The notes beneath the pieces are model-generated. The model was not told the DNA's origin. It saw only the letters and a program-made list of their open reading frames with translations, and did not search any database. Shown here piece after piece: positions 4,431-25,591 of a DNA stretch of 57,786 nt. The position numbers and the translations under genes are program-made. The stretch's first letter is position 1, and each line of letters starts with the position of its first letter. Where the stretch lies: positions 22,634 to 80,419 of the forward strand of contig JAJQAA010000004.1 of the NCBI GenBank assembly GCA_021204045.1, given 5' to 3'. This DNA is from Clostridiales bacterium. GTDB taxonomy: Bacteria > Bacillota > Clostridia > Lachnospirales > Lachnospiraceae.

Positions 4431-5727
4431 ATGGTTGCTGTGAGACGGGAAACGGAAGAAGGATCGTCAGGGAAAATTGTTCCGGGACGGAGAGATCGAT
4501 TTCTGTGACGCCGCCGTATCTCTGAACGGTTCTGCGCACATTGGACAGGCCGAGGCCGTGCCAGCGGGAATCGTTTTTGGATGTGACGGGCAGTCCACGT
4601 TTCATCTGAGGCGGATCGCCGCAGTAGGAATTTACAAATGAGAGGATGAGCTGGCCGGCGGCGATCTCACTGTGGATGTTGAGAAAGCGTTTCTCGGATG
4701 GTTCTACCTTCAGGCAGGCTTCAATGGCATTGTCAATGAGATTCCCGAAAATCGTGCATATGTCCATGTCGCGGATGAAACGGATATTCCGGAAATCAAG
4801 GATAACATCATGGCTGATTTTATATTTCTGTAAAAACGGAAGCTTCTGGCATAAGAGACCGTCCAGCGTGGGATTGCCGGTTTCGATGGTTACCGGCGTT
4901 TCCTGAAGCTGGTGGATCAGGCTGTCCAGATAGAGCTCCAGCTGTCCGTTCGTATCCGCTGTCATAGAGCGGATCGCCAGCAGATGATTTTGCATATCAT
5001 GGTGGAGGCTGCGGATGTTTTTGTCCGCCCGGTACTGGGATTCATAGTGCCGGAGACGTTCTTCGTTGAGGGCATTCTGAAGGCGGGTCCGGTGTTCCTG
5101 ATTTGTGACATGGCGTTCGCGCTCAGACATAACCAGAAAGAGCAGCATAAATATCTGCAGCAGGATAAATAACAGGTTGCCGGAATCCGAGAAATCGTTT
5201 CCACTCCAGCGCAGATTCCGTGTTGCCATGACGCACAGAACCGTGACGCCAAGAGAAAGCCAGGCAGGGAGCGTTGGCTCTCCAATGTGATCCAGAGGGA
5301 GGAAAAAACGTACGGGGAGAAGCACCAGGGAGTGGATCACAATGCTGAGAAACGGGGTAACCCAGGGGGAGAGCGTTGTAAGCGCAGGCAGTTCCCGCAG
5401 GGCATAGGTAACGGGGCTGAGAAAAATATTCTGGCCAATGACGAAGCAGGAAGCGGTAAATATCGAGAGAAACAGGCCCCGGCGGCCCCGGATGCCTTTG
5501 GCACATGCCAGATAAAGGACATAGCAGACGGCTCTCAGAAAAAAACGGGTCAGCGTGAACACGCCGAGTTCATGGATTGCCAATGGAATCAACAGCAAAA
5601 GAATACCAAAGGAAACTCGTTTCCGGAATTGTGGAATGTCCCGGTCGTCGTCCGCAGTGGAAAAGTAATACTGGGCAAGAAAGGCGTCCGCGATGGGACC
5701 CAGCGCGTCAAACAGTGAGAGAGTCAT
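4429..5727 (-). CDS. Sensor histidine kinase, AgrC/LytS-like GHKL type
   Basis: This is a 432-residue membrane kinase. Residues 1-200 hold about six hydrophobic segments, followed by a basic coiled-coil linker (about 205-240). The phospho-acceptor histidine lies in SLHHDMQNHLL (about residue 243), the N box in GNLIDNAIEAC and the G box in HGLGLSNV near the C terminus: the GHKL ATPase layout of AgrC-like kinases. The ATG overlaps the stop of the response regulator gene (ATGA, 4 bp), so the two are translationally coupled. The lack of a large extracellular domain suggests it senses through its membrane helices. No agrB- or agrD-like gene is adjacent, so the signal is unknown. Confidence 0.9.
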   Translation of the reverse strand: MTLSLFDALGPIADAFLAQYYFSTADDDRDIPQFRKRVSFGILLLLIPLAIHELGVFTLTRFFLRAVCYVLYLACAKGIRGRRGLFLSIFTASCFVIGQNIFLSPVTYALRELPALTTLSPWVTPFLSIVIHSLVLLPVRFFLPLDHIGEPTLPAWLSLGVTVLCVMATRNLRWSGNDFSDSGNLLFILLQIFMLLFLVMSERERHVTNQEHRTRLQNALNEERLRHYESQYRADKNIRSLHHDMQNHLLAIRSMTADTNGQLELYLDSLIHQLQETPVTIETGNPTLDGLLCQKLPFLQKYKISHDVILDFRNIRFIRDMDICTIFGNLIDNAIEACLKVEPSEKRFLNIHSEIAAGQLILSFVNSYCGDPPQMKRGLPVTSKNDSRWHGLGLSNVRRTVQRYGGVTEIDLSVPEQFSLTILLPFPVSQQP

Positions 5728-6437
5728 AGCAGCTCCTTTCGGTAGAGCGCGTAAGCGGAAAGAAATTCCCTGCGCCGGTGTTTGCTGAGAGGAACAGAAC
5801 TGCCGTCGAGCATGGAAATGCTGTCTTCGCCGATCAGGCGAATGCTGCCCATATTGACCAGATAGCTTTTGTGGCAGCGAAAAAACCCACAGCCGGCCAG
5901 CTGCAAAGAAAGGTCGGAGATGGTAGCTTCGCTTTCAAAGAAGGAAAACTGAAGACAGGCAAAGCGGATCTTATGACGAAAGGACTCAATGTAGCAGACC
6001 TCGTTGGTGTTGACCTGTATGATGCCGTCCGACGTATGAAATGTCAGTGTTTGTCCCGCGGAGCGTTTCAGAGAATGGAGCGCATCCTGCATCCGCGCCG
6101 CAAAGATTTCGTACCGGATAGGTTTTTCCAGGAAACTGAAGGCATGTACTTCATATCCTTCCATGGCATACCGCGTCATGGAGGTAATAAAGAAAATGAT
6201 CGCCTGACAGCCGCGCTGGCGCAGTTTACGGGCGGCATTCATGCCGTTCATTTCTCCCATCTGAATATCTAACAGCAGAATATCATAAGAACATTCTGCG
6301 GCCAGTAAATCCTCGGCATTGAAAAAAGTCCGGATTTCAAGCTTTTCCCGGTGCTGAGCAGAGAACTGATCAAGATAGTTTTGCAGCTGCTGGCAGGCAG
6401 GGGCTTCGTCATCGCAGATCGCAATTCTCCAGGCCAT
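5724..6437 (-). CDS. LytTR-family response regulator
   Basis: A 237-residue regulator: REC domain with acidic pocket ICDDE (residues 8-11), phospho-acceptor Asp57 in LLLDIQMGEM and conserved Lys in the FLEKPI segment, then a LytTR DNA-binding domain (about residues 135-235) of the AgrA/VirR type. The start at 6437 is chosen because GGGAGGATTGCTT precedes that ATG and the REC fold begins at once; an upstream in-frame extension has no RBS. It is the first gene of the two-gene operon with the kinase. Its targets cannot be read from the sequence. Confidence 0.92.
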   Translation of the reverse strand: MAWRIAICDDEAPACQQLQNYLDQFSAQHREKLEIRTFFNAEDLLAAECSYDILLLDIQMGEMNGMNAARKLRQRGCQAIIFFITSMTRYAMEGYEVHAFSFLEKPIRYEIFAARMQDALHSLKRSAGQTLTFHTSDGIIQVNTNEVCYIESFRHKIRFACLQFSFFESEATISDLSLQLAGCGFFRCHKSYLVNMGSIRLIGEDSISMLDGSSVPLSKHRRREFLSAYALYRKELL

Positions 6438-6464
6438 AAGCAATCCTCCCGTTTTCCTGTTTCC

Positions 6465-6501
6465 GGTATCTATGTTAGTTGTTCTCAATGGGAAATGTCA
6501 A
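6465..6501 (-). promoter_or_regulatory. Promoter of the LytTR two-component operon
   Basis: On the minus strand, TTGACA (6501-6496), 18 bp, TAACAT (6477-6472) lies about 35 bp before the regulator start codon. Confidence 0.55.
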
Positions 6502-6578
6502 GTGTTAAATGCGGGAATGATTACGCCGAATATCGTCATCATTCCGGCACAATCCTGCGCAAAATACAGCGGAGAAAG

Positions 6579-6645
6579 TCAAAAATGTCTACTTCAACAT
6601 CAAAAATGTGGGTGTGGAAATTTAGCGAAATAACGTAAAATAAAT
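6579..6645 (+). promoter_or_regulatory. Direct-repeat activator site and promoter of the ABC/cupin operon
   Basis: TCAAAAATGT occurs twice (6579-6588 and 6600-6609) with a 21-bp period, two helical turns, the arrangement typical of AraC-family binding sites. A -10 candidate (TAAAAT, 6636-6641) follows with no good -35 box, as expected for an activator-dependent promoter. The likely binder is the AraC-type response regulator encoded at the far end of the operon (inference). A separate inverted repeat (GGAATGAT 6514-6521 / ATCATTCC 6538-6545) lies further upstream. Confidence 0.5.
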
Positions 6646-6705
6646 GAGAAAAACAGTAAATATATACAGTTTGCAAGAGGAAAACCAAGGAGGGATAGTA
6701 CATAT

Positions 6706-7596
6706 ATGACAGCGAAAACACAGAAAAAACTAAGAAATGTTATGAATTATGTCATGTTTATGGGGCCGGCGGTTCTGCTGTTTGTAGTGATCGGACTTAT
6801 CCCGTTTTTCTATGAGATCGGTTATTCCTTTACAAACTGGGACGGCATTCATGCGGATTATGATATTGTGGGCCTGAAAAATTATATCGACGTATTTACG
6901 AACGATACGAAATACTGGCACGCTATGTGGTTTACGATCAAATTCGCGGTCTGTGTCCTGATCTTTTCCAATCTGCTGGGGTTTGTCTGGGCGTATGGAC
7001 TGTCAAAAAAGATTCCGTTCCGGAATGTGATGAGAGCCGGGTTTTACATTCCGCGTATTGTCGGAGGCGTTATCCTGGGCTTTCTGTGGAGATTTATTAT
7101 CACGGAGCTGTTTCCGGTGATCGGTGACGTTACGGGGATCGGCTGGTTTTCTCAGAAATGGTTTCAGACGGAACAATCTTCGTTCTGGGCGATGGTGATC
7201 GTTATGACCTGGAGCATGGCGGGGTATATGATGATTATCTATGTGGCGGGTCTGACGTCCATTTCCAACGACTATATTGAGGCCGCCACGATCGACGGCG
7301 CTTCGTCCGCATGTGTTCTCCGCCATATTATCCTGCCCCTGCTGATGCCTTCTATCACGCAATGCCTGTTTTTGAGCGTGGTCAATTCCCTGAAGGTGTA
7401 TGACCTGAATATTTCTCTTACAAACGGCAACCCGTTCCGATTATCGGAGGCGGTCACGATGAATGTGTATCAGACGGCGTTTTCGTCCAATCAGATGGGG
7501 TACGGCAGCGCCAAGGCGCTGATTCTGGTGCTTGTGATCGCGGGGATCAGCCTGGTACAGGTGGCGATTACGTCCAGTAAGGAGGTGGAGCTGTAA
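6706..7596 (+). CDS. Carbohydrate ABC transporter permease, MalF/UgpA type
   Basis: 296-residue inner-membrane permease with six predicted helices (first at about 16-36). The cytoplasmic EAA loop, EAATIDGASSACVL (about residues 192-205), contacts the ATPase. RBS AAGGAGGG precedes the ATG. It shares one nucleotide (TAATG) with the next gene. No ATPase gene is present in the locus, which is usual for CUT1 carbohydrate importers in Firmicutes that use a shared MsmK-like ATPase encoded elsewhere. It starts the operon that continues through the cupin and epimerase genes, so the imported compound is probably their substrate. Confidence 0.93.
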   Translation: MTAKTQKKLRNVMNYVMFMGPAVLLFVVIGLIPFFYEIGYSFTNWDGIHADYDIVGLKNYIDVFTNDTKYWHAMWFTIKFAVCVLIFSNLLGFVWAYGLSKKIPFRNVMRAGFYIPRIVGGVILGFLWRFIITELFPVIGDVTGIGWFSQKWFQTEQSSFWAMVIVMTWSMAGYMMIIYVAGLTSISNDYIEAATIDGASSACVLRHIILPLLMPSITQCLFLSVVNSLKVYDLNISLTNGNPFRLSEAVTMNVYQTAFSSNQMGYGSAKALILVLVIAGISLVQVAITSSKEVEL

Positions 7597-8426
7597 TGAA
7601 AAAAAAGAAAACGATGACGATGAGTTTAACATTTGCCGCTCTGCTGATCTGCCTGCTTATTGTGCTTGTGCCGTTTTACATTATTGTGACGAACTCGTTT
7701 AAGCCATATTCTGAGATCGCGCAGCATATTTTCGGCCTGCCGCAGGCTTTCACCTTAAAGAATTACACGGAGGCGTGGAGACGGCTGAATTTCGCCAATT
7801 CACTGAAAAATACGTTTATTATTTCCGTGCTTTCCAACATAGGCGGCGTCGTGTTTTCCAGCATGTGCGGTTACTGGATTACGAGACATTCCAATAAAGG
7901 TACAAAACTGGTGTTTTACGTGTTGATTGCGTTTATGTCAATTCCGTTTCAGGCGCTGATGATTCCTTTCGCCAAGATTACCAGCAAAATGTACCTGACC
8001 AACAGCCTGGTCGGCTTAAGCATCTGTTTCTGGGCGCTCACCGTGCCGATCAGTACGTTTATTACAGCCGGAGCGGTAAAAAGTGTGCCGGTGGAGATCG
8101 AGGAATCCGCACTGATCGACGGATGCTCCCATCTGAAAATGTACTGGATCATCGTGTTCCCGCTGATCCGGGCCTCTGTGTTTACATTTGCGACGATCAA
8201 TACGCTGTGGTTCTGGAATGACTATCTGATGACGCAGCTGATGCTGTCGAAAAAAACGCTGCGCACAATTCAGATTTCCATGCAGGCGTTGTTTAATGAG
8301 GCGTTCTTCGCGTGGGATGTGGCGCTGGCAGCCTTGACGCTGGCAATCCTTCCGTTGTTTGCGTTTTTCGTGATTGCCCAGAAGCAGGTGCTGGAGGGCG
8401 CGTCGGCGGGAGCCGTAAAGGGCTGA
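7596..8426 (+). CDS. Carbohydrate ABC transporter permease, MalG/UgpE type
   Basis: 276 residues, six predicted helices and the second EAA-type loop, ESALIDGCSHLKMYW (about 170-184). N-terminal motif VPFYIIVTNSFKP is typical of MalG-like subunits. It overlaps the first permease by one base, so the two are translationally coupled and should form a heterodimeric channel in the cytoplasmic membrane. Confidence 0.93.
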   Translation: MKKKKTMTMSLTFAALLICLLIVLVPFYIIVTNSFKPYSEIAQHIFGLPQAFTLKNYTEAWRRLNFANSLKNTFIISVLSNIGGVVFSSMCGYWITRHSNKGTKLVFYVLIAFMSIPFQALMIPFAKITSKMYLTNSLVGLSICFWALTVPISTFITAGAVKSVPVEIEESALIDGCSHLKMYWIIVFPLIRASVFTFATINTLWFWNDYLMTQLMLSKKTLRTIQISMQALFNEAFFAWDVALAALTLAILPLFAFFVIAQKQVLEGASAGAVKG

Positions 8427-8438
8427 CCTGCGCGGCAA

Positions 8439-8502
8439 CAGAAGACTGATGAACCAGAAAATTGATGGAACAGAAGATTGACGAATCCGAAGATTCGTGA
8501 AC
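8439..8502 (+). repeat. Four 16-bp degenerate direct repeats between permease and binding-protein genes
   Basis: Consecutive 16-mers start at 8439, 8455, 8471 and 8487 (consensus CAGAAGATTGATGAAC) with no spacer. The last two also contain a hairpin, ACGAATC-CGAA-GATTCGT (8481-8498). It lies in the 129-bp gap before the binding-protein gene, where a stem could shield the upstream transcript end and allow higher expression of the binding protein (inference). Confidence 0.6.
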
Positions 8503-8561
8503 CGGGAATGTATCAGCATGTGCTGTTACAAATATAAAAAATTTATAAGGAGGACATGACT

Positions 8562-9920
8562 ATGAAGAAATGTTTGGCACTGACACTGGCGGCTGTGTTG
8601 GCGGCATCGACATTGGCAGGCTGCGGCGGAGGTTCGACGACGACAGCGGAGACGACGACGGCTGCGGCGGCAAGTGCAGCGGAGAGCAGCGCGGAAACGA
8701 CAGAGGCTGCGGCTGCCGCCGAGAGAGAGCCGGGTTCCGTGAATCTGAGCATCATGCTGGCTCTGGGACAGTGGACGGACAATTTTGATTCTGTCATCGA
8801 GGATTACAAGAAGGACAACCCGCAGATCGGTACGATCGAGTATGAGTTCCCCAGCTCGTCTACGTACTGGGATCTGTTGAAGGGATATCTTTCGGCGGGA
8901 ACCATGCCGGATATCTTCGGCTGCGGTTTTGGCGAGCAGATTGAAAACTGGAACGAGTACCTGGCGGATTTGAGCGACCTCAATGCGGCGGCCGATCTTA
9001 CGGACGAGCAGGTGGCGATGTGTTCTCTGGACGGCAAGACGATCCAGGTAATGCCGATGGTCATGGAAGGCTGGGGCATTCTTTACAACATGAAATACCT
9101 GAATCAGGTCGGCTGGGAGAAGACGCCGGAGACGATCTCCGAGCTGGAGCAGCTCTGCAAAGACCTGGAGGCGGCCGGCATTCAGCCGTTTATCCATCAC
9201 TATGCGGAGACCTCGCTGAGCCTGACAAACCATCTGGGATCTACCTGGATTACGGTGAAGGACGATCCGCTGGGATATTTTGAGGAGCTGAAATCCGGCA
9301 AGGATATGAATCTGGCAGAGGATGAGGATCTGAACGCGATGCTGGATTACTATGATCTGGTTCTCCAGTACGGCAATGACGACGTGATCGCGACGGACAA
9401 GTGGACCGGGAGAAACTCTTTCTTCTTGGAGGAAGGCGCCATGGTTGATGACGAAGGTTCCTGGGAGATCCCGAATATCATGGACGTAAACCCGGATCTG
9501 GCGGATCATGTGGTTCAGGGTCTTGTGCCGATTTCGGATGACGCATCCAAGAACAAGCTTCAGACGGCCTCCATCTGCGCGGCGGTATATAAGGACAGCC
9601 CGGAGCTTGAGGAAGCTAAGAAATTCCTGGATTATCTCACAAAGAGCGACTACACCGCGTACTGGCATCAGGACGTCATGGGCAATATCCCCTGCCTGTC
9701 TACCGTTCCGGTATCGGAAAACCTCGCCTGCCTGGGCCAGGATGTGTTCGCGCTGATGCAGGATGGCAAGACGCATGAAGTGATGACTCCGTGGACGCCG
9801 GATGAGGTGAAGGACAGTCTCGGAGAGGTCTGGTCGCTGTATGTAGGAAAGCAGATCGACCGTGCACAGTTCTTTGAGCAGTATCAGGCGGTCTGGACAA
9901 ACTACGCGGCGAATAAGTAA
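8562..9920 (+). CDS. Extracellular solute-binding lipoprotein of the carbohydrate ABC importer
   Basis: 452 residues. A lipoprotein signal peptide ends in lipobox LAGC (lipidated Cys21), followed by a Thr/Ala/Ser/Glu-rich tether (about 22-60) and a family-1 solute-binding fold. The ATG at 8562 is preferred over the one at 8556 because GGAGG (8549-8553) is 8 bp upstream of it. Aromatic-rich stretches (SSSTYWDL, NYAANK end) are typical of sugar binders, but the ligand cannot be named. Placing the binding protein after both permeases and just before the cupin genes ties import to the enzymes encoded downstream. Confidence 0.92.
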   Translation: MKKCLALTLAAVLAASTLAGCGGGSTTTAETTTAAAASAAESSAETTEAAAAAEREPGSVNLSIMLALGQWTDNFDSVIEDYKKDNPQIGTIEYEFPSSSTYWDLLKGYLSAGTMPDIFGCGFGEQIENWNEYLADLSDLNAAADLTDEQVAMCSLDGKTIQVMPMVMEGWGILYNMKYLNQVGWEKTPETISELEQLCKDLEAAGIQPFIHHYAETSLSLTNHLGSTWITVKDDPLGYFEELKSGKDMNLAEDEDLNAMLDYYDLVLQYGNDDVIATDKWTGRNSFFLEEGAMVDDEGSWEIPNIMDVNPDLADHVVQGLVPISDDASKNKLQTASICAAVYKDSPELEEAKKFLDYLTKSDYTAYWHQDVMGNIPCLSTVPVSENLACLGQDVFALMQDGKTHEVMTPWTPDEVKDSLGEVWSLYVGKQIDRAQFFEQYQAVWTNYAANK

Positions 9921-9947
9921 ATCAGGATATAGGAGGAGGAAAACGCG

Positions 9948-10697
9948 ATGGCGATTTATATTGCGCGCAAGGAAGATCTGGCTGCCGAGTATAATTCCAG
10001 CGGTTTTGCCAGCAAGGAGGCGCTTCCCGGTACTTATGAAGGCGGAATCCGGAATTACAAATGCTTCCTGAAGGCCGGGTGCCAGGTTTCTCCTGAGATG
10101 TATGCGGATAAGCTTGTTCTCTTCTTTTTCGGAAAAGGAAGGGGATATGTGACGGACAAAAAGGACGCTTACGCCATTGAAGAGCTCTGCTTTTACGCTC
10201 CGGAATTTGACAAGACGGCATATGCCATTCACGCCATTGAGGATATGGAATTTATGATGTGCGTGGTGGAGATGAATCAGTGGGACTGGAAGGTCTATGA
10301 GGGATCTCATGTGCGTCTTCCGTTCTTCCGGACCGTCAGCAAATGCGTCAAATACGATCAGGACTGCAAGGGCCCGAATACAACCTCCTGGTTTGTGCTG
10401 ACCGGGCAGCAGCTTGGCCGGATCATGGTAGGCATGGTGCGCGCCGTGGGGGAAGGAACCACGGAGAAGGGCCACCCGGCAGTAGAACAGTGGAATTACT
10501 GCGTGGGAGATTCGGATTTCAAGATCACTGTGGACGGAGAGACGACGGAGCACAGAGCAGGCGAATGGAGCTATGTGCCGGCCGGACTGGATCATTCTCT
10601 GGTGGCGGAACCGGGCAAAGAAGTGTATTATGTGTGGTTTGAGCATTTTACAAAGGAAAAGGATTTCATCGTAAAGCCTCTTCCGGAAGGCTTCTAA
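9948..10697 (+). CDS. Bicupin protein, first of three tandem paralogues
   Basis: 249 residues, predicted cytoplasmic. Two cupin-like halves: the N-terminal half (GGIRNYKCFLKAG, VSPEMY) lacks metal-binding histidines, and the C-terminal half carries GTTEKGH (His176) and a perfect cupin motif 2, GEWSYVPAGLDH (His216). Glu180 (PAVEQWNY) stands where both paralogues have His. RBS GGAGGAGG. Cupins of this size include sugar isomerases and ureidoglycine-type aminohydrolases, but the precise family is not recognised. It probably acts on the sugar-like substrate brought in by the adjacent importer (inference). Confidence 0.8.
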   Translation: MAIYIARKEDLAAEYNSSGFASKEALPGTYEGGIRNYKCFLKAGCQVSPEMYADKLVLFFFGKGRGYVTDKKDAYAIEELCFYAPEFDKTAYAIHAIEDMEFMMCVVEMNQWDWKVYEGSHVRLPFFRTVSKCVKYDQDCKGPNTTSWFVLTGQQLGRIMVGMVRAVGEGTTEKGHPAVEQWNYCVGDSDFKITVDGETTEHRAGEWSYVPAGLDHSLVAEPGKEVYYVWFEHFTKEKDFIVKPLPEGF

Positions 10698-10710
10698 GGA
10701 GGGCAAGGAT

Positions 10711-11481
10711 ATGGAGAAATATTATCTGGCAAAAGCGGAGGACATTCCCTGTGATTATGATGAGAACGGGTTTGCGATCAGCGAGCTGCTCGCGGGAAGC
10801 TATGACGGCGGGATCCGGAATTATAAATGCTTTCTGAAGGCGGGCTGCACGGTTTCTCCGGAGCTTTACGGGGAAGAGACGGTTATCCTGATGTTCGGTA
10901 AGGGGAAAGGCTATCTGCATTCCGAACATGAAATGCACAATATCACGGAGCTCTCCTTTTACGCTCCGAAATTTGACAAAGAGCCCTACACGATCTACGC
11001 CATCGACGATATGGAATTTATCATGAGCGTGGTGGAGATGAGCCAGTGGGACCGGGCGCTGTATGAGGCCTCCCATGTGCGTCTGCCGTTCTTCCTTTCG
11101 ATCAGTGACGCGGTCAAATATGATCAGGACTGCAAGGGTCCGAACACGACCTCCTGGCATATATTAAGCCCGAAACAGCTTGGCCGTATCATGGTCGGGG
11201 TCGTGCGCGCCACCGGAGAGGGGACCACAGAAAAGGGTCATCCGAAGGTACATCAGTGGAATTACTGCGTGGGGGATTCCGATTTTAATCTGACGGTCGG
11301 CGACTGCCCCACCGTGAAGCATAAGTCGGGAGACTGGAGCTTTATTCCCGCGGGACCGGATCATGCGCTGGTGGCAGATCCGGGAAAGGAAGTTTATTAT
11401 GTCTGGTACGAACAGTACACCAGAGAGAAGGACTTCTGCATTTCGTTGGCTAAAGGCGAGGAATTTGACGGTCCGTATTGA
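10711..11481 (+). CDS. Bicupin protein, second of three tandem paralogues
   Basis: 256 residues, 13 bp after the previous stop with its own AAGGAGGG site. Strongly similar to its neighbours throughout (GGIRNYKCFLKAGC, YDQDCKGPNTTSW, QWNYCVGDSDF, PAGPDH). The predicted metal site in the C-terminal half is complete: EKGHPKVHQWNY supplies two His spaced by four, and PAGPDH supplies a third. It lacks the FEHF histidine of the other two (YEQY instead). This kept metal site with altered pocket residues suggests three specialised enzymes or a hetero-oligomer rather than simple dosage (inference). Confidence 0.8.
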   Translation: MEKYYLAKAEDIPCDYDENGFAISELLAGSYDGGIRNYKCFLKAGCTVSPELYGEETVILMFGKGKGYLHSEHEMHNITELSFYAPKFDKEPYTIYAIDDMEFIMSVVEMSQWDRALYEASHVRLPFFLSISDAVKYDQDCKGPNTTSWHILSPKQLGRIMVGVVRATGEGTTEKGHPKVHQWNYCVGDSDFNLTVGDCPTVKHKSGDWSFIPAGPDHALVADPGKEVYYVWYEQYTREKDFCISLAKGEEFDGPY

Positions 11482-11538
11482 TGTGCGAAACGGGTTTTGC
11501 TTTTATTACACATACCTATACAAGGAGGCTTTTCTGTC

Positions 11539-12312
11539 ATGAAAAAGGAGTACGAGAAGAACTATTACGTAGTCAAGGCGGAGGACGTGGAAAAAAAGTT
11601 TGACGACAACGGGTTCTCCAAAACCGAGCTGCTGCCGGGAGTGTACGATGGCGGTATCCGGAGCTACAAATGTTTCCTGAAACCCGGCTGCAGCGTGTCC
11701 CCGGAATTATATAAGGATAAGGGCATCGTGATGCTGTTTGGCCAGGGAAAGGGCGTACTGAAGGATAAGGACGGAGAACATGCGATCACGGAACTGGCTT
11801 TTTACGTGCCGGATTTTGACAGGGACGCGTTTACGATCCACGCGGAAGAGGAGATGGAATTCGTCATCAATGTGATCGAATTTAATCAGTGGGACTGGGA
11901 AGGATACAATGCCTGGCACATCCGTCTGCCCTATTTCCGCCTGCACAGCGAATGCACCCAGTACATCCAGGACTGCAAGGGTCCGAACACCGAGGCTCGT
12001 ATGGTTCTGTGCCCGAAGTGGTTTGGACGCGTGCTGATGGGCACGACGAGAGCGGACGGAGAAGGAACCGTGGAGAAAGGCCATCCGGCCGTGCACCAGT
12101 GGAATTATTGTGTCGGCAATTCCGATTTCACCATGAGCGTCGGATACAAGGCAAAGAACAGCATGGAGAATGTAAATCACAAGGCGGGAGACTGGAGCTT
12201 TATTCCGGCGGGAGCCGACCATGATCTGGTATCTGAGCCGGGCAAGGAAGTATATTATGTGTGGTTTGAGCATTTTACCGATGAAAAGAAATTCGCGAAG
12301 GAAGGAAACTGA
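11539..12312 (+). CDS. Bicupin protein, third of three tandem paralogues
   Basis: 257 residues from the ATG at 11539, which has AAGGAGG 10 bp upstream; an in-frame extension to 11497 has no RBS. The C-terminal metal motif is complete (EKGHPAVHQWNY, PAGADH, FEHF). It is the most divergent copy, with a small insertion before the motif 2 strand (SMENVNHKAGDW) and NTEARMVLCP replacing NTTSW. A terminator-like hairpin follows, so transcription of the epimerase genes may be reduced relative to the cupins. Confidence 0.8.
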   Translation: MKKEYEKNYYVVKAEDVEKKFDDNGFSKTELLPGVYDGGIRSYKCFLKPGCSVSPELYKDKGIVMLFGQGKGVLKDKDGEHAITELAFYVPDFDRDAFTIHAEEEMEFVINVIEFNQWDWEGYNAWHIRLPYFRLHSECTQYIQDCKGPNTEARMVLCPKWFGRVLMGTTRADGEGTVEKGHPAVHQWNYCVGNSDFTMSVGYKAKNSMENVNHKAGDWSFIPAGADHDLVSEPGKEVYYVWFEHFTDEKKFAKEGN

Positions 12313-12373
12313 CGTGTGAGCGTGTTCCCGGAATTTCCGGAACGAATCACCAGATGAACGAAGAAACGCCATA

Positions 12374-12414
12374 AAAAGATAACCGAACTCACATTGTGAT
12401 TTCGGTTATCTTTA
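12374..12414 (+). terminator. Intra-operonic terminator-like hairpin
   Basis: AAAGATAACCGAA (12375-12387) pairs with TTCGGTTATCTTT (12401-12413) around a loop containing a second dyad (TCACATTGTGA). The T-run is short. The RBS of the next gene (GGAGG 12418-12422) follows at once, suggesting partial termination or mRNA processing rather than a full operon end. Confidence 0.6.
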
Positions 12415-12426
12415 TCTGGAGGAAGT

Positions 12427-13275
12427 ATGGGCGGAGTAGAGAGAGCAGATATAGCAAATTCCAATACGCATTACCGGTTTTATCCGTTTGAAGTCTTCCT
12501 GGAGCGGCAGAGAGATGTCGGCTTTCGGAAGGTTGACCTGTTCGGCGCGACGCCTCACGTGTGGATTGACGCGTACGAGGCTACGGATGGAAAAGAAATC
12601 CGGAAAAAGATTCGGAACGCGGGCCTGGAGACCGGGGTGTTTATCCCGGAATTTTCGTCCATGCGCTATACGCTGGGCAGCCTGGGCGCGGCGCGGGAAA
12701 AAACCCGGGACTATCTGAAACGCTGTTTTGAATTTGCGTCCGGACTGGGATGTGATGTGCTGGTGATCGGGGCCAACGGGTTTTCCCTGGATCGGGAGGA
12801 AGATGAGCGTGGCCTGCAGTTTGAGGAGTCCTTAAGCTGCGTCTGCGCGATGGCCCGTGCCTTTGGGATGAAGATTGCCCTGGAAAATCATTTCAGCGAC
12901 GGGACGGACATGATCCGCACGATCGAGGATATGAGACAGTGTATGAGCAGACAGAAGGAAGAGAATTTGTTCGTGGCGGTTGACACGGCGTCGGTTTATG
13001 AGGCGAAAGAGACGCTGGGACAGTGGTTTGACGCATTTGGAGACCGGGTGATCTATGTCTGCCTGTCCAATACCCGGTTCGACGGAGCCAGACGGTACTG
13101 GGGAGACGGGTATCTGAATCTGCAGGAACTCGTGGATACTCTTGACGGGAACGGATATCGGGGAGCCATTGGGTGCGACTGCATGGTGCGGGAGTATCTG
13201 TCAGCGCCCTGGAAGGCGGATGAAAGTACGGCGCGGATGCTGGACTGGGTACTGAAGCGGAGGGAATCGAAGTGA
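12427..13275 (+). CDS. Sugar phosphate isomerase/epimerase-like TIM-barrel protein
   Basis: 282 residues of the xylose-isomerase-like TIM-barrel superfamily (AP-endonuclease family 2 fold). Barrel-strand motifs visible are KVDLFGATPHVW, VLVIGANGF, KIALENHFS (metal-ligand Glu), FVAVDTASVYEA and VIYVCLSNTRFD. Metal-dependent members isomerise or epimerise sugars and keto-inositols. RBS GGAGG precedes the ATG. The stop overlaps the GTG start of the next, paralogous gene. The reaction is unknown; context suggests successive steps on the imported substrate. Confidence 0.82.
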   Translation: MGGVERADIANSNTHYRFYPFEVFLERQRDVGFRKVDLFGATPHVWIDAYEATDGKEIRKKIRNAGLETGVFIPEFSSMRYTLGSLGAAREKTRDYLKRCFEFASGLGCDVLVIGANGFSLDREEDERGLQFEESLSCVCAMARAFGMKIALENHFSDGTDMIRTIEDMRQCMSRQKEENLFVAVDTASVYEAKETLGQWFDAFGDRVIYVCLSNTRFDGARRYWGDGYLNLQELVDTLDGNGYRGAIGCDCMVREYLSAPWKADESTARMLDWVLKRRESK

Positions 13276-14108
13276 GAGACCGAATAAAAAGAAGTCAGGT
13301 TGCCGGGATGAATCTGATGTATCGGTGGTATTCTTTTGAGTATTTCCTGGACGCGATGGAGAAACTGGGATTTGAGAGTATTTCCATCTGGGGCGGCCCG
13401 CCGCATTTTGACTGTGACTGCATGGGATATGAAGACTGCGCGCGGATTCGCAGGGAAGTGGAGAAACGGAATCTGGCGATCACCGGTTTTCTGGTTACGG
13501 CGTCAAATTACCGTTATCAGATCGGGGTGGAGGAACACGATCAGCGGGAGCGCGTTTTCCGGTATTTTCGCAACGGCATTCTGGCGGCGGAGGAGCTGGG
13601 CAGCCCTTATATGTCCGTCAATTCCGGATGGGGCTATTGGAATCACGACCGTGAGGAAGCGTTCCGGCGCGCGGCGGACATGCTTTATCGTCTCTGCTGC
13701 GAAGGGGAGAAGCATCATGTGAAGATTGTCATGGAAAGCCTGAAAAGTCTGGAGACGCAGCTGGTGGTGACGCTCGAGGACACAAAACGCATGGAACAGG
13801 CGGTCTCACATCCGTATTTCCGGCTGATGGCGGATACGGGGGCGCTGGCCTACAACGGGGAGTCTCTGGAGGACTGGTTTGCGTGTTTCGGGGACCGGAT
13901 TGAAGCCATGCATTTCGTGGATGGCATGCATCTGACATGGGGAGACGGAGGCTCGCCGCTGGATGAGATGATGGTTTCTCTGATCAAGCACAATTATCAG
14001 GGTTGTCTTGCCCTGGAGACATCCGGCGCGCGGTATTTTGCCGATCCCATGGCCGCGGACAGAAAGGCGCTGCAGATTCTGGGACGTTTCCTTACTCCGG
14101 AGAAATAA
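13272..14108 (+). CDS. Sugar phosphate isomerase/epimerase-like TIM-barrel protein, paralogue
   Basis: 278 residues, same fold as the preceding protein: SISIWGGPPHFDC, YMSVNSGWGYW, KIVMESLKS (metal-ligand Glu), LMADTGALAYN, AMHFVDGMH, ALETSGARYF. It starts with GTG in a GTGA overlap and has GGAGGG 7 bp upstream; the N terminus then aligns with that of the first epimerase (RYRFYPFEVF-like RWYSFEYF), supporting this start. The retained metal-binding Glu, Asp and His positions suggest both copies are active. Confidence 0.82.
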   Translation: MRDRIKRSQVAGMNLMYRWYSFEYFLDAMEKLGFESISIWGGPPHFDCDCMGYEDCARIRREVEKRNLAITGFLVTASNYRYQIGVEEHDQRERVFRYFRNGILAAEELGSPYMSVNSGWGYWNHDREEAFRRAADMLYRLCCEGEKHHVKIVMESLKSLETQLVVTLEDTKRMEQAVSHPYFRLMADTGALAYNGESLEDWFACFGDRIEAMHFVDGMHLTWGDGGSPLDEMMVSLIKHNYQGCLALETSGARYFADPMAADRKALQILGRFLTPEK

Positions 14109-14110
14109 GA

Positions 14111-15460
14111 ATGCATATGGACAGAGCGATGTTTTCAAAAAAACAGATATATGATATCATAATACCGTTGATTCTGGAACAGCTGTTCATGGCGGCGATC
14201 GGCATGTTCGACATCGTCATGGTCAGCGGAATCGGAGAGAACGCCATTTCGGCCGTGTCTCTGGTGGATTTTATCAATCAGCTCATTTACAGTGTGCTGA
14301 ATGCCCTTTGTACCGGCGGAGCCATCGTCTGCTCCCAGTTTCTGGGACAGAAGGAAAAGGGGAGCGCACGGGCGGCTGTGCAGCATATGATCATGCTGGC
14401 GGTATGCGCCGGCTCCGTGCTGATGATGGCAGGGCTGGCGGGGAACGGGCCGATCCTGCGGGTGCTGTACCGCTCCATCGCGCCTGAGGTTATGTCTAAG
14501 GCACGCGTGTATTTTGCGTTATCGTCCGTTTCCTGGCTGTTTATCGGGCTGTTCTGCTGCAGCGCGGCGACACTGCGGGTGCTGGGATATACCAGGATTT
14601 CCTTTCATACCTCGCTGTGCATGAACGTGATCAACATCGGCCTGAACGCGCTTTTTATTTTCGGCCTGAAATGGGGCGTCTTTGGCGCGGGTCTGGCTTC
14701 CCTTATTTCCAGGGTGGTTGTAAGCCTGTTCATGTTCCGGGCGGTTCTGTGCAGGCAGAAGATGCTGGATATCGGGATGCCGTGGAAATGGAAGCCCGCC
14801 AGGAAATTTTTCGTAACCGTCTTAAACTGCGCGATTCCGACCGGATTGGAGAGCAGTATATTTTATATCGGGCGTCTGCTGGTACAGACCGTGGTAACGG
14901 AGTTTGGGACTTCTGCGATCGCCGCGAACGCGGTAGGTCTGACGGTGACGGAGTTCCTGCACATGCCGGGCTCCGGGGTGAGCATCGGTATGATTACGAT
15001 TGTCGGACGCTGCGTCGGAGCGGATGAAAAAAAGCAGGCCCGCTCTTATGCCCGCTATCTGATCGGGGTGGTTTATGTGAGCCAGGGAATTCTGAACGTG
15101 ATCGTGGCGATATTGTCGCCCTGGATCGCGGATAGGTACCATCTGATGCCGCAGGCGAAGGAGCTGCTGATCCTGATGCTGGTGACGCACGCCGTGATTT
15201 CCACAATATTCTGGCCGATGGCCTTTACCGGCGCGAGCGCCCTGAAAGCGGCTGGCGACATCCGCTATGCCATGATCGTGGCGGTCTCGACCATGTGGAT
15301 TTTCCGTGTTGCGGGGAGCTGGCTGCTGGTTCATCTGGTTCCGCAGTGGGGAGTATTAAGCGTATGGTATGCCATGTATGCTGACTGGATTGTCCGCGCC
15401 ATGCTGGAATGGAAAAGGATGCACGGAGAAGTCTGGCTCAATAAAAGGATTCAGGTCTGA
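14111..15460 (+). CDS. MATE-family efflux transporter
   Basis: 449 residues with about 12 membrane helices in two repeated halves, the layout of MATE (NorM/DinF-like) cation-coupled antiporters. The ATG at 14111 sits 2 bp after the epimerase stop, and its GGAG lies inside the end of that gene, so it is part of the operon. In this setting it may export a toxic intermediate or end product of the cupin/epimerase pathway, but a drug-efflux role is equally possible. Confidence 0.88.
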   Translation: MHMDRAMFSKKQIYDIIIPLILEQLFMAAIGMFDIVMVSGIGENAISAVSLVDFINQLIYSVLNALCTGGAIVCSQFLGQKEKGSARAAVQHMIMLAVCAGSVLMMAGLAGNGPILRVLYRSIAPEVMSKARVYFALSSVSWLFIGLFCCSAATLRVLGYTRISFHTSLCMNVINIGLNALFIFGLKWGVFGAGLASLISRVVVSLFMFRAVLCRQKMLDIGMPWKWKPARKFFVTVLNCAIPTGLESSIFYIGRLLVQTVVTEFGTSAIAANAVGLTVTEFLHMPGSGVSIGMITIVGRCVGADEKKQARSYARYLIGVVYVSQGILNVIVAILSPWIADRYHLMPQAKELLILMLVTHAVISTIFWPMAFTGASALKAAGDIRYAMIVAVSTMWIFRVAGSWLLVHLVPQWGVLSVWYAMYADWIVRAMLEWKRMHGEVWLNKRIQV

Positions 15461-15494
15461 ACGGGATAAGCGGCCAGAACGGAGGAGATTACGG

Positions 15495-16388
15495 ATGAGT
15501 AAAAAAGACGGCCATAGCTCTCTTTATGTGCTTTCTCTCACGATGGGAAATATTTTATTTGGTTTTGGGCCTGTTCTTCAGAAATTTACGTTCCCTTACG
15601 GCGGAAGCGGACTTTTGACAGCGTTTTATTCGTCCGCGTTCGGGCTCATCCCTCTTTTTATTCTGATAAAATACAATCATCTGTCGCTGAAGTCGGTCCG
15701 GCCGATTGCCGGAAAACTGGCTGTGCTTTGCATCGGCAGTTCCGGGGCGCTTCTGTTTCTGTGGTCGTCCTATAATTATATTCCGACGGGACTTGCGACT
15801 ACATTGCATTACATATATCCCATGGCGATCGCCGTCGCGATGACCGTATTTTATCATGAACCGTTTACCGGAAAAAAGGCGGTCGCGCTGCTGCTTGTTC
15901 TGTGTGGGATTGCGAGAATAGGCGCTTCCGGGGGCGCCACCCTGAATCCGACCGGTATGGTGCTTGCACTGGTGTCAGGCTTTTTCTGGGCGTTTTACAT
16001 CATATACATGGAAAAATCGGGTTTGTGTGAGCAGCCGTCCCCGCTGATCAGTTTTTGTACCACGTTTGCCAATGTCCCGCTTGCACTGCTCGTATGCGCG
16101 GTTACCGGAAAGCTTGTGCTATACAGCGCTCCCTGCGCCTGGGGAATCGTAGTCGCGGTCGCGCTGCTGCACAGGACAGTGGCCTGCAGCCTGTTTCAGA
16201 TCGGGTTAAGACGCGTGGAACCGGTTTCCGCGGGAATCCTCTGTACGTTTGAACCGGTTTCCGCGCTTGTGTTCGGGTACTTTCTGCTCGGGGAAGCCGT
16301 CAGCGCAAGGCAGCTGTCCGGACTTATATTCATATTATCCGGAATCATTGTCAATGTGCTGGCCGGTAAAAAACGTTCCGGCAGCTGA
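15495..16388 (+). CDS. EamA/DMT-superfamily transporter
   Basis: 297 residues, ten predicted helices in two EamA repeats (second repeat from about residue 150), with the conserved C-terminal GYFLLGEAVSARQLSG segment. The ATG at 15495 has GGAGGAG 8 bp upstream. It is the last gene of the operon and ends 8 bp from the stop of the convergent response regulator gene, with no terminator between. Such permeases export amino acids, nucleosides or sugar derivatives; the substrate is unknown. Confidence 0.87.
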   Translation: MSKKDGHSSLYVLSLTMGNILFGFGPVLQKFTFPYGGSGLLTAFYSSAFGLIPLFILIKYNHLSLKSVRPIAGKLAVLCIGSSGALLFLWSSYNYIPTGLATTLHYIYPMAIAVAMTVFYHEPFTGKKAVALLLVLCGIARIGASGGATLNPTGMVLALVSGFFWAFYIIYMEKSGLCEQPSPLISFCTTFANVPLALLVCAVTGKLVLYSAPCAWGIVVAVALLHRTVACSLFQIGLRRVEPVSAGILCTFEPVSALVFGYFLLGEAVSARQLSGLIFILSGIIVNVLAGKKRSGS

Positions 16389-16396
16389 TGCCGGAA

Positions 16397-17992
16397 TTAA
16401 GTTTTCTTTTGTTCCCGTTGCAGTGTCGCCCGGTAATCTCCCGGCGTGGCGCCGGTCAGTTTTTTGAATTGTTTCGCAAAGTATTTTTCGTCCTTAAATC
16501 CGATGGCATACGCGATGTCCTGAATTTTCAGGGAAAAATCTCCCAGAAGCTCTTTGGCGTGGCGGATGCGGATCTGGTTTAGGTAAGTCAGCATACTGAC
16601 ATGAAAAGTACTGGTAAATCTGCGGCTCATATAGTCCTTGTTCATGTAAAACAAACTGGCGTACTCGGACTGAATGAACGGCTTGCTGTAGTTGGATTCC
16701 ATGTAAAGCGCGATCTGGTGCATGACGTCCGTGGAAGAATTGTGTTTCATCCGGGCGGAAATGGAAAACAACGTAGAACAGATGGCTTTGCTCATGAGCC
16801 TGCGGGAAAACAGAAAATGTTCGTCCATCATATCCGCGTAAACCAGAGGGCATTCATTGATGTCCCAGGAAAACGAAGGATTTTTCTTTTTGATTGAGAA
16901 AATCCAGTGGTTTAAAAGACGATAAAACCGTTTTATCGCGGAATCAATCGGTTGCAACGTGATGTTCTTTTCAGGAAGGACAGAGACGATCCAGTCCTCT
17001 GCGCAGCGCTCGATTTCCGCCTGATTTCCGGTGAGAAGGGCGGAAAAGATCGGATCCTCGCGTTCCTGGAGTGCAGAGGAAGAATCGGAGGGCGCAGAAG
17101 GCGTGAGGGGCTGATCCAAAGTCGCGATCATGGAAGGACGGGTATCCGCGTAAACGTTTAAAAAGCTGTTTTTCGCCTGCGCATAGGCAAAACGAAACTG
17201 ATCCGGGAACGGAAGCTGCACGCTGACTCCCAGATGGAACGGAAAGGGTGTATTAAAAAACAGAGATCTGGACTCCTGGGCTATGGAGAGCAGCGTGCGC
17301 TCTGTGCTGCCATAGAGAAAGAGGATGGTCTCACCGGCGCGTTCGGGGTTGGAAAGCATGATGCCGTTGTCGGGCAGTAAAAGCTGGCGTACGCGCTGTT
17401 CCCAGCCTTTCATCAGACCGGAAAACGGAGAATGGTTCATGGGAAACCAGTTGGTGTCATAATAAATAATTTTGTGGGAGAAAATCGCGGAAAAGCTGGG
17501 ATTCTCCCGTAAAAGCTGCTGATAAACCGTTTCTTCCTTTGCCGGATCCAGCATCTTGTAAAGCAGGGAAGCGGAGTAGAAGGCTGAGAGCGTGTGGATT
17601 CTCAGCTTTGATTCGTGATCTCTGTTCCAGCTCTGGATCGCGCTGCGGACGGTCCGGATTAATTTGGACGGTTCCAGGGGCTTTAAGAGGTAATCCAGGC
17701 AGCCCTTGGTCAGCATAGCGCGCACATACTCAAATTCTCCGTAGCCGGAGACGGCGATTATTTTGGTGGAAGGATAGCGGGAGGCGATGAAGTCCATGAT
17801 TTCGATCCCGTTTTTGTCCTCCATGACAATGTCAGTGATGACAATTTCAGGAACTTCCTGACAGATGAGTTCCAGAGCCTGCGTTCCGCTGGAAGCGGTC
17901 AGTATTTTGTCAACGCCCAGTTCTTCCCAAGGAACCAGAAGTCGGATCGCCTGGATCACATGGTATTCATCATCGGTAATCAGTACCTTCAT
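16397..17992 (-). CDS. AraC-type response regulator, YesN-like
   Basis: 531 residues. An N-terminal REC domain (ITDDE, phospho-acceptor Asp54 in ITDIVMED, Lys in LLKPLEPSK), a long central region of unassigned fold (about 130-420) and a C-terminal AraC double HTH (about 430-525; KDYMSRRFTSTF, IQDIAYAIGFKDEKYFAKQFKKLTG). Its ATG overlaps the kinase stop (CCATGA), so the pair is coupled. YesN-type regulators usually control adjacent carbohydrate ABC operons. The convergent operon at 6706-16388, with its 21-bp-period direct repeat, is the natural target (inference). Confidence 0.93.
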   Translation of the reverse strand: MKVLITDDEYHVIQAIRLLVPWEELGVDKILTASSGTQALELICQEVPEIVITDIVMEDKNGIEIMDFIASRYPSTKIIAVSGYGEFEYVRAMLTKGCLDYLLKPLEPSKLIRTVRSAIQSWNRDHESKLRIHTLSAFYSASLLYKMLDPAKEETVYQQLLRENPSFSAIFSHKIIYYDTNWFPMNHSPFSGLMKGWEQRVRQLLLPDNGIMLSNPERAGETILFLYGSTERTLLSIAQESRSLFFNTPFPFHLGVSVQLPFPDQFRFAYAQAKNSFLNVYADTRPSMIATLDQPLTPSAPSDSSSALQEREDPIFSALLTGNQAEIERCAEDWIVSVLPEKNITLQPIDSAIKRFYRLLNHWIFSIKKKNPSFSWDINECPLVYADMMDEHFLFSRRLMSKAICSTLFSISARMKHNSSTDVMHQIALYMESNYSKPFIQSEYASLFYMNKDYMSRRFTSTFHVSMLTYLNQIRIRHAKELLGDFSLKIQDIAYAIGFKDEKYFAKQFKKLTGATPGDYRATLQREQKKT

Positions 17993-19986
17993 GGCAATTC
18001 CTCCTTTCGTCGATTCTTATAAGATAAAACCAGATGAACCGTAGTTCCGCCCAGTTCATTGGAATACAGTTCCATGGAGCAGTCCGAGCCGAAATTCAGC
18101 AGCATGCGCAGCAGGACGTTGGACAGGCCGATGTTGCTGGTCGCGTAGAGATTTTCCGTGGCGTTTTTAATATCGGGCTCGTTCTGCGGCGGTGTCGGCT
18201 GCGCTTCGCGGTTGTCGTCGATGGAAGAAAGACGATGCGGCGTGAGGAGACGGTGGATGCATTCTTTTCGCAGCTCAGAGAGCCGTCGGTTGATATCAGC
18301 CAGTCGTTCGTCGGAGGGAGCGCGGCCGTTATCGATGACGTACAGGTGGAGAAACAAATCCTCATCCGTCAGAACCCGGACGCAGAGACTTCCATGTTCT
18401 TTTTTGAAAAGATTGCCATGCTTAAAGGAATTTTCAATCAGAGGCTGGAGCAGCATTTTCGGCACAATGATCTGCCGTACGGATTCATCCGCCTCAAAAA
18501 GCACGGACAGGCGGCTGGTGAAACGCATTTTCTGCAATTCGATATATCGCTCGATATAGGACAGCTCATCATTTACGGTTACCAGTGTGCGGCTGGTGTC
18601 CGTGGAATACTGCAACAGCTGCCCGAAGGAAGAAATATAATCATACTGTTCTCTGTCATGATGTTCCAGCGATTTGGTCGCAAGGCACTGAAGCGTATTA
18701 TAGATAAAGTGCGGATTGATCTGCGCTTCCAGCATTTTCAGTTCCGTGGAACGGTTGACAAGTTCGAGTTCATACTGCCGGATAACAAAATTGTTGATCG
18801 TATCGATCATTTCTTCCAGGGAACGGAAAAGGATACCGATTTCATCTTCATAGTTGTAGGTCACATACTCAGACAGCCTGGAATTCAGATTCTGCGCCTG
18901 CGTGTTGATGGAGTTTAAGTAAATGGTGGCTTTTTTCAGCGGCGTGGTAAAACGCAGAATGGAAAAGCTGTTGATCAGAACAGTAATCAGCAGGCATATG
19001 CCGAAGGTGATCAGCAGAATTGCCAGCTGCGCGTTCGAGCTCTGATAAATCAGATGTTTCGGTACGGACTTTATCATATACCATTCACAATAGTCTCCCG
19101 GTAATTTCTGGCAGATTCTGAGAAAATCATCCGAGCCGGCGCTGATAAAGGAATCGGGGGTTTCCTCGGCCTGCCGGATGAGTGTCCATATCCAGTCCTC
19201 GGACGTCTGGGATCCGATGCAGGTGGAATCGGAGGAAAAGATAATATGTCCGTCGGAATCCACAATGTAAAACTGTTCGGACGGATTGTAGAAAAAGTCA
19301 CATAGTTTTTCAAAAAAGTCCGTGGAAATATCAATGCGCAGGCATCCGATGGGAACGTTGGGGCTGGGCATATGATAGATGGGGAGACATACGGTAAAGA
19401 CCAGGCTGTCCGTTCCGGAAGGCTGCGATGGCGTTGCGTTTTGGGGCGGGGTCGTATGATCGAGCCGGTGACCGTAGTTATCCTGCGCGTGGGGAGGCAG
19501 GATGTACGCCTGAAACGTGGGAACGGGGGAGGTAAATTCGCATTCCTGCGGAGTGAGCACGCGCAGATATCGCTGCAGATTTCTGGTGGTAATCAGGAAG
19601 CTGTTGGCGGTTTTAAATGAAGAAAACTGTATCTGAGTCGCCTCCGGAGTCATGGAGCTGATGTTCGTCAAATAGGAGAAGATCAGGGAGGAATTGGCGG
19701 ATTCCGCGTAAAAAAATGTAGTGTTGTCTCTGGAAAAAAGCAGGTCCTGTATGGTCCGGTTGAGATAAATCCCCTTATTGGCTGTGTCGATACTGGTAGA
19801 CAGAGAATGGTCGATGTTGGCCGCAATGATCTGCCAGGTGTTGGTCGCCTGTTCGATATAGTTTTTCTCTGCGGTCTGCCTCATGTTAAAAGAAATGAAC
19901 AGGCAGTAGACCATGAGAGGTAGGGTAGTGGCGATCACCAGGGTTGAGAGGAGTTTATAGCTTATACTCTGAACGTGCTTTTTCAT
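17989..19986 (-). CDS. YesM-like sensor histidine kinase
   Basis: 665 residues. Membrane helices at about 10-30 and 319-341 flank a large extracellular sensor region of Cache-like appearance, followed by a HAMP-like linker, the His_kinase motif QINPHFIYNTLQ (His at about 426) and a GHKL ATPase domain (QPLIENSFKHG N box, SNIGLSNVLLR G box). The ATG at 19986 (MKKHVQS) is preferred; the RBS there is weak. A Pro/Asn-rich insert (about 165-195) lies in the sensor region. It is expected to sense an extracellular compound related to the importer substrate. Confidence 0.92.
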   Translation of the reverse strand: MKKHVQSISYKLLSTLVIATTLPLMVYCLFISFNMRQTAEKNYIEQATNTWQIIAANIDHSLSTSIDTANKGIYLNRTIQDLLFSRDNTTFFYAESANSSLIFSYLTNISSMTPEATQIQFSSFKTANSFLITTRNLQRYLRVLTPQECEFTSPVPTFQAYILPPHAQDNYGHRLDHTTPPQNATPSQPSGTDSLVFTVCLPIYHMPSPNVPIGCLRIDISTDFFEKLCDFFYNPSEQFYIVDSDGHIIFSSDSTCIGSQTSEDWIWTLIRQAEETPDSFISAGSDDFLRICQKLPGDYCEWYMIKSVPKHLIYQSSNAQLAILLITFGICLLITVLINSFSILRFTTPLKKATIYLNSINTQAQNLNSRLSEYVTYNYEDEIGILFRSLEEMIDTINNFVIRQYELELVNRSTELKMLEAQINPHFIYNTLQCLATKSLEHHDREQYDYISSFGQLLQYSTDTSRTLVTVNDELSYIERYIELQKMRFTSRLSVLFEADESVRQIIVPKMLLQPLIENSFKHGNLFKKEHGSLCVRVLTDEDLFLHLYVIDNGRAPSDERLADINRRLSELRKECIHRLLTPHRLSSIDDNREAQPTPPQNEPDIKNATENLYATSNIGLSNVLLRMLLNFGSDCSMELYSNELGGTTVHLVLSYKNRRKEELP

Positions 19987-20085
19987 AAACAGCAGTCTTC
20001 TTTCGGCAGTCTTCTTTCCGATAGGGAAGTATATCAACAGATGAAGTTGTTTACTGTCATTTTGGCTTCGGAATCTGTTTCAAAT

Positions 20086-25588: not shown

Positions 25589-25591
25589 ATG

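Follow-up and report, generated by a model that had tools for sequence, protein, structure and literature searches.

What does a bacterium encode in a gene cluster that sets three tandem bicupins between a carbohydrate importer and two tandem TIM-barrel proteins, followed by two exporters? Such a cluster of ten genes occupies positions 6,706 to 16,388 of the window, i.e. the whole 57,786-nucleotide stretch analyzed here from a Clostridiales bacterium of the Lachnospiraceae (GenBank assembly GCA_021204045.1, contig JAJQAA010000004.1). The cluster is a real, partly conserved and uncharacterized catabolic unit of a known general kind. Its ten open reading frames (ORFs) lie where the initial annotation had placed them, and Pfam bears out the importer, TIM-barrel, MATE and DMT domains assigned there. 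The view of the whole as an uncharacterized carbohydrate-type operon is likewise supported; the cupins score under every Pfam and NCBIfam cut-off and parts of the cluster are linked in many other loci. We rank first, at a probability of about 0.40, an operon that is induced by, and breaks down, an acidic sugar compound (a uronide, a ketouronate or a sugar-acid conjugate), with a sugar-amino acid conjugate ranked second. In our view, the most interesting aspect of the locus, which the initial annotation had not seen, is a recurring metal-site-altered partner in tandem epimerase genes.

Altered metal sites in tandem epimerase genes and changed residues in cupin trios

The two TIM-barrel proteins, epi1 and epi2, are 27% identical and group with FrlC-like proteins; the FrlC model NF007360 is the best NCBIfam profile for both, at scores (95.7 bits for epi2 and 69.5 bits for epi1) under its cut-off of 305. 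The four ketose 3-epimerase metal ligands E-D-H-E, whose positions we presume to be those of tagatose epimerases, are kept in epi2 and its orthologs. Epi1 and its orthologs lack this set and read EDCD, LDNH, QDCF or LDCF, with the window epi1 retaining two of the four ligands, and epi1 and its three orthologs are conserved at a mean column identity of 70%. The earlier description of two tandem sugar-epimerase-like proteins thus holds in that both belong to AP_endonuc_2, but epi1 has no intact metal site. Since epi1 looks instead like a partner of epi2, the two successive isomerization steps suggested previously are doubtful.

The same asymmetry is evident well beyond the window. Of 14 tandem epimerase arrays, 13 contain one altered copy (13 of 31 genes, L142 being the exception), compared with none of the 27 genes outside arrays (Fisher p 7e-5, a value that ignores relatedness), and on a 56-row tree built without the ligand columns the state of the metal site changes at least five times. 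One search for such loci used epi1-type query sequences, a selection that may favor altered copies, and 12 of its 28 genomes other than that of the window were sampled, six with at least two matches and six with one; two further genomes had at least two matches, G291, which was already represented (L083), and G342, which was left out. Ligand tables for the epimerases and cupins were made on six-frame translations and cover cup1 of L010 and one epimerase of L072, while the altered copy of L085 is a short ORF of 165 aa. Judging from the sequences, we read this pattern as probable repeated evolution of a pair of one active and one inactive epimerase. Altered copies also occur in arrays with no cupin of the cup1-cup3 family (hereafter family cupin) detected nearby (L139-L141, L143 and L144). 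As a separate observation, several of the six tandem FrlC-like loci L139-L144, five of which contain an altered metal site, have FGGY-kinase-, BtpA/SgcQ- and FrlB-like families as common neighbors (profiles read on L140 and L149).

The cupins present a related picture. As claimed, they are three paralogous tandem bicupins, with cup2 and cup3 being 64% and 57% identical to cup1, and the residues cited for them are correct, namely E180 in cup1 versus H in cup2 and cup3, and WFEHF versus WYEQY. Every one of 12 cupin trios, defined as three main-group cupins encoded side by side, contains exactly one copy without His180, and the altered paralog differs between trios. This definition leaves out L013-L015, which encode a divergent copy and two main copies (E, H, E), as well as L025/L026, with two main copies and a divergent one (H, H, Y). 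One changed copy per trio echoes the metal-site-altered partner in the tandem epimerase genes. Conceivably, two unrelated folds, both operating as mixed complexes of differentiated paralogs, would isomerize an acidic sugar or conjugate by an undescribed route; one of the three bicupins would have a substitution at a likely metal-ligand site, a role that different paralogs would have taken in the course of evolution, and the TIM-barrel pair would consist of an active protein and its metal-deficient partner. Taken as a whole, this proposal is more doubtful than the acidic substrate by itself, and we regard it as tentative.

As for the identity of the cupins, no Pfam or NCBIfam model claims any of the three. 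Cupin_2 (PF07883) finds cup1 under its cut-off (Table 1) and does not match cup2 or cup3; the KduI/IolB profile (PF04962, cut-off 23.9) gives 13.5 bits for cup2 and no match at E <=1 for cup1 and cup3; and the (S)-ureidoglycine aminohydrolase model TIGR03214 (cut-off 200) gives 19 bits for cup1 and none for the others. The initial annotation would have been refuted by placement of each cupin in one known enzyme family with a known pathway, and no such placement was obtained from these profiles. A PDB sequence search with cup1 returned a best match of E 0.042, and one with the cupin profile A3 returned generic cupins, the best being 2vqa at 1.4e-5. The predicted fold of cup2 is an ordinary bicupin, as in the KduI/IolB isomerases, which the cupins also resemble in length and in the uronate-type neighbors of related loci. 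They differ from KduI/IolB in scoring under the profile cut-off, in occurring as tandem sets of two or three and in their H176-x3-H/E180 pattern. A plain second KduI was set aside as an identity for the cupins, as the same genome holds a canonical KduI elsewhere (for KduI/DhuI clusters, see excerpts of PMC12838403). The (S)-ureidoglycine aminohydrolase/DUF861 bicupins are more remote still, with 9-11% identity in addition to the low TIGR03214 score, and Pfam finds no purine genes among the ten cluster genes.

Relatives of the cluster in other genomes

A scan of our collection yielded 22 loci with related cupins, mostly from Lachnospiraceae genera or unclassified Clostridia, the remainder comprising one Clostridiaceae, one Ruthenibacterium and one unclassified Bacillota. 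Within the bacterial family of the window, 11 of 397 genomes contain family cupins (14-row profile, E 1e-15 or better), as do 10 of 391 genomes of the class at 1e-12, where the nine besides the window's own genome span 4.5e-36 to 1.3e-27. The sole other sampled genome of the same genus has no family cupin. Given this sparse occurrence, the cupin trait is accessory. Among the plasmid collection, relatives were found in Subdoligranulum and Microvirga only.

Gene neighborhoods were compared across 39 loci, which are the 51 context loci minus three duplicates (L071, L077 and L084) and nine distant ones (L040 and L097-L104); several loci end early at contig ends. A MATE gene lies near the cupins in 28 of the 39, an AP_endonuc_2 gene in 22 (25 with L012, L039 and L078 added), and a binding protein gene directly precedes the first cupin in 20 (maps counted by eye). 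A permA more than 50% identical to that of the window, together with at least two family cupins, is present in 16 of the 39 loci (window included, duplicates removed), and in the same 15 other loci permA and permB are 53-88% and 48-87% identical to their window counterparts. Thirteen of these 16 have a MATE gene within 8 kb of the cupins and ten an AP_endonuc_2 gene, although that of L016 sits in a pectin-type half of the locus and some permA-type loci end at contig ends. The window MATE is 57-59% identical in L013-L015, and the window binding protein is 29-33% identical (202-246 bits) to those beside the cupins of L073, L079 and L086. PDB searches with two binding proteins, and with epi1 and epi2, returned generic relatives; the record that the window binding protein matches best, 9xor, has no name more specific than maltose-binding protein.

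It is convenient to sort these loci into types A to E, a naming of our own. Type A combines CUT1 permeases and a binding protein with cupins. In type B, a polar amino-acid type ABC importer and two tandem FrlC-like proteins accompany the cupins; it includes L013-L015 (which also encode LysR and MATE; profiles read on L014), L072, L083 and contig C62 of the window's own genome (L036); L085 has the FrlC-like pair with no amino-acid importer labelled, and in L074 and L087 a cupin lies near genes of an amino-acid importer, with no pair present. Type C, comprising L073, L079, L086 and partly one half of L016 (profiles read on L086), has the order binding protein, cupin, second binding protein, GH88, permeases, GH28, AP_endonuc_2 and MATE. 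Type D joins more distant cupins to a glycyl-radical enzyme with its activase and an MPI-like cupin, in some cases with AP_endonuc_2 and GFO/IDH proteins (profiles read on L100). Type E has TRAP importers near cupins (L040, and by clustering L075, L076 and L081). In L099-L102, the glycyl-radical enzyme (~735 aa) is uncharacterized and lies, with its activase, beside a distant family cupin and an MPI-like cupin. The window is a hybrid, with the importer and trio of type A and the epimerase pair and MATE of type B. No other examined locus unites a CUT1 importer, a cupin trio and a tandem epimerase pair as the window does. As regards the second result named by the initial annotation as refuting, a lack of linkage in other genomes, the patchy linkage of importer, cupins, MATE and AP_endonuc_2 is conserved in many loci, but the full combination is not.

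The same genome contains a second cassette at positions 1-5359 of contig C62 (L036), which encodes an amino-acid-type ABC ATPase, two distant family cupins, an altered and an intact epimerase and an SBP_bac_3-like protein. Four of the eight AP_endonuc_2 genes of this genome adjoin its two family-cupin loci. By comparison, 12 control windows around 13 other Cupin_2 matches in the genome contained no AP_endonuc_2 gene of the cluster type and no related binding protein by BLAST; three contained a MATE gene, in one case sharing 72% identity with a MATE in the set, and one contained a permease gene. A chance neighborhood was set aside on these grounds.

Substrate, proposed working and rival explanations

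Several inferences can be made regarding how the cluster might function. The YesM/YesN-like pair encoded downstream would sense the compound, and the CUT1 permeases and binding protein would import it. The importer, which comprises two BPD_transp_1 permeases and an SBP_bac_1/8 protein, all above Pfam cut-offs, is presumably powered by a shared MsmX-type ATPase encoded elsewhere, an arrangement that we assume by convention; the gene content of the cluster includes no ATPase, and no search was aimed at one elsewhere. In the cytoplasm, the bicupins would act as metal-dependent aldose/ketose (ketouronate) isomerases, with the three paralogs forming one differentiated hetero-oligomer. Epimerization of the ketose beside the carbonyl would then fall to the epi1/epi2 pair, in which epi2 would be the catalyst and epi1 a partner whose role is non-catalytic or reassigned. 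Lastly, MATE and DMT would export a released aglycone or by-product.

The "unusual sugar, polyol or sugar conjugate" of the initial annotation may be narrowed to an acidic sugar or sugar-acid conjugate. Pointers to acidic sugars beside family cupins elsewhere include GH88, GH28, a 2-hydroxyacid dehydrogenase, TRAP importers and IolO-like proteins. A PfkB kinase located 12 kb downstream of the cluster resembles 2-keto-3-deoxygluconate kinases (191.8 bits, cut-off 440), and together with the canonical KduI of the genome it makes a route for uronate products plausible. The close relatives L009 and L010 encode one IolO-like-cluster protein before the importer, not an FrlC-type pair. That of L009 resembles the IolO/LguG 5-keto-L-gluconate 4-epimerases (195.8 bits, below the cut-off of 300; chemistry in excerpts of PMC12632266), unlike the window pair, which scores 35.7 bits each to the IolO model. 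Two points weigh against the acidic substrate. The permeases of the pectin-type loci are just 25-30% identical to those of the window, and the relationship of both TIM-barrel proteins to FrlC, along with the amino-acid-type importers beside FrlC-like pairs, suggests sugar-amino acid conjugates instead.

Such a conjugate, Amadori- or opine-like, is the strongest of the alternatives, although still unlikely. The cupins and epi2/epi1 would isomerize its sugar part, the amine would be freed, and DMT/MATE would export the amino part. Apart from the FrlC profile and grouping described above, this agrees with the linkage of family cupins and epimerases to a polar amino-acid type ABC importer on contig C62 and in L013-L015, and with similar importers beside the tandem FrlC-like genes of L142 and L144. 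In other Lachnospiraceae, genes resembling FrlB (73.7 bits, cut-off 430) and FrlD (194.3 bits, cut-off 247) accompany FrlC-like relatives, with profiles read on L149; in L018 (15783-19520), two FrlB-like SIS proteins, a GntR regulator and an FrlC-like gene lie 2.7 kb after the MATE that follows the trio; and L075 has hydantoinase A/B genes near its cupins. However, the best FrlB and FrlD scores in the window's own genome are 36.3 and 68.6 bits, an absence that is not firm, as none of 14 control genomes passed the cut-offs either. In addition, L009 and L010 have their IolO-like-cluster protein in place of the pair, and the pectin-type genes beside family cupins would be left unexplained. The classical frl pathway itself was set aside on the low FrlB and FrlD scores, those of the control genomes being likewise below the cut-offs. 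Epi2 resembles FrlC (fructoselysine 3-epimerase) in its best profile and its EDHE site, and departs from it in its distance from the cut-off, in its pairing with a metal-site-degraded paralog and in its genomic company.

The next alternative concerns the complexes rather than the substrate, namely that the three cupins are redundant or sequential and the two epimerases sequential, with no hetero-oligomers and with altered sites as ordinary paralog divergence. Glutamate at a cupin metal site can act as a metal ligand, so cup1 with its E180 need not be defective, and the two ligands kept by the window epi1 point the same way. His180 is present in both main copies of the cupin pairs L025, L026, L028 and L029. 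Cup1 and cup2 are fused into one protein in three genomes, but the model of this fusion has a pTM of 0.51 and no confident interface (its alignment has three rows over most of the second half). Ordinary divergence would not readily account for exactly one altered copy in all 12 trios, on different paralogs, for altered epimerase sites being confined to tandem arrays, or for the continued conservation of epi1 and its orthologs. We consider this explanation rather unlikely as well.

Least probable, by some distance, is that epi2 is a metal-dependent beta-eliminase/lyase acting on 3-keto-glycosides, with the cupins processing the released keto sugar and MATE exporting the aglycone: Mn2+-site TIM-barrel enzymes cleave 3-keto glycosides and the C-deglycosidases do so as heteromers (excerpts of PMC10628242, on beta-eliminases, and PMC8563793, on heteromeric TIM-barrel deglycosidases), MATE genes are common near the cupins, and L039, L099 and L100 combine family cupins, GFO/IDH-cluster oxidoreductases and AP_endonuc_2, but the window operon contains no oxidoreductase, members of the GFO/IDH cluster are present in 8 of 51 loci, none of which has a window-type importer, a ketose epimerase model gives the top score for epi2 and the word cupin is absent from the main texts of both papers. 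The C-glycoside deglycosidases share with the pair a TIM-barrel Mn enzyme within a heteromer (PMC8563793, in excerpt), yet their partner is a beta-sandwich protein rather than a second TIM barrel, and the window cluster has no 3-oxidase.

Layout, regulation and meaning of the cluster

The features of the cluster are listed in Table 1. Starts were refined from the sequence, the likelier ones being ATG 11539 for cup3, ATG 14111 for MATE and ATG 15495 for DMT.

Table 1. Genes and other features of the cluster and its downstream regulators (window coordinates; cupin residues in cup1 numbering)
Feature	Position	Strand	Evidence
permA, CUT1 ABC permease	6706..7596	+	PF00528 72.2 bits
permB, CUT1 ABC permease	7596..8426	+	PF00528 62.5 bits
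Extracellular solute-binding lipoprotein	8556..9920	+	SBP_bac_8 67.7 bits; SBP_bac_8/SBP_bac_1 above Pfam cut-offs
cup1, bicupin; H176, E180, H216 at likely ligand positions	9948..10697	+	Cupin_2 20.2 bits, under cut-off 27.2
cup2, bicupin; H176, H180, H216	10711..11481	+	Model pLDDT 94.4
cup3, bicupin; H176, H180, H216	11539..12312 (longest ORF from 11497)	+	Residue alignment
Strong hairpin, T-rich 3' arm, just 5' of epi1	12375..12413	+	Fold -23.9 kcal/mol, z -6.38
epi1, AP_endonuc_2 TIM barrel, degraded metal site (EDCD, not EDHE)	12427..13275	+	PF01261 94.9 bits
epi2, AP_endonuc_2 TIM barrel, FrlC type, intact EDHE metal site	13272..14108	+	PF01261 102.4 bits
MATE family exporter	14111..15460	+	TIGR00797 195.1 bits (cut-off 147.4)
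DMT (EamA) family exporter	15495..16388	+	PF00892 91 bits
YesN-like response regulator, AraC-type domain, likely regulator	16397..17992	-	PF00072, PF12833
YesM-like histidine kinase	17989..20037	-	PF06580 78.3 bits

The hairpin between cup3 and epi1 makes a single transcription unit uncertain. This hairpin is possibly a partial terminator or an mRNA-end signal, so the genes from epi1 to DMT may be expressed at a different level than the importer and cupins. A consensus terminator scan did not list it, and Rfam at gathering thresholds gave no match in positions 5500-20500.

Two-component systems flank the cluster on both sides, as the initial annotation had noted: a GHKL and LytTR pair upstream (4429-6488) and the YesN/YesM-like pair downstream. 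Relatives of the downstream regulator and kinase are found near cupins in 21 and 20 of the 39 loci, respectively, and in L010 the regulator is 58% identical and pieces of the kinase are 61% and 70% identical. The upstream system belongs to no shared cluster among the 51 context loci, with a single weak LytTR relative (35% identity) in L010. From these comparisons, the downstream system alone travels with the operon, and one operon including both systems was set aside. In L074, L080 and L087, a binding protein gene and a cupin gene are separated from the permease genes and immediately precede those of a histidine kinase and a regulator, an arrangement resembling a sensing unit. Further downstream, the window encodes a mannose-type PTS IIB, a fused IIC-IID and then the PfkB kinase (25058-29642); a small ORF between the PTS genes and the kinase (27840-28370) has weak matches to glucan-/choline-binding repeats.

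Among the matches listed from the open-access literature, there was no paper on this gene set. If the proposed working is correct, the cluster would represent a route, as yet without a name, by which gut Lachnospiraceae use an acidic sugar from the diet or the host, and it would add to the recognized bicupins a family scoring under all Pfam and NCBIfam cut-offs. Moreover, tandem epimerase genes would provide a natural series of repeated metal-site losses, which may help to explain why an enzyme keeps an inactive twin.

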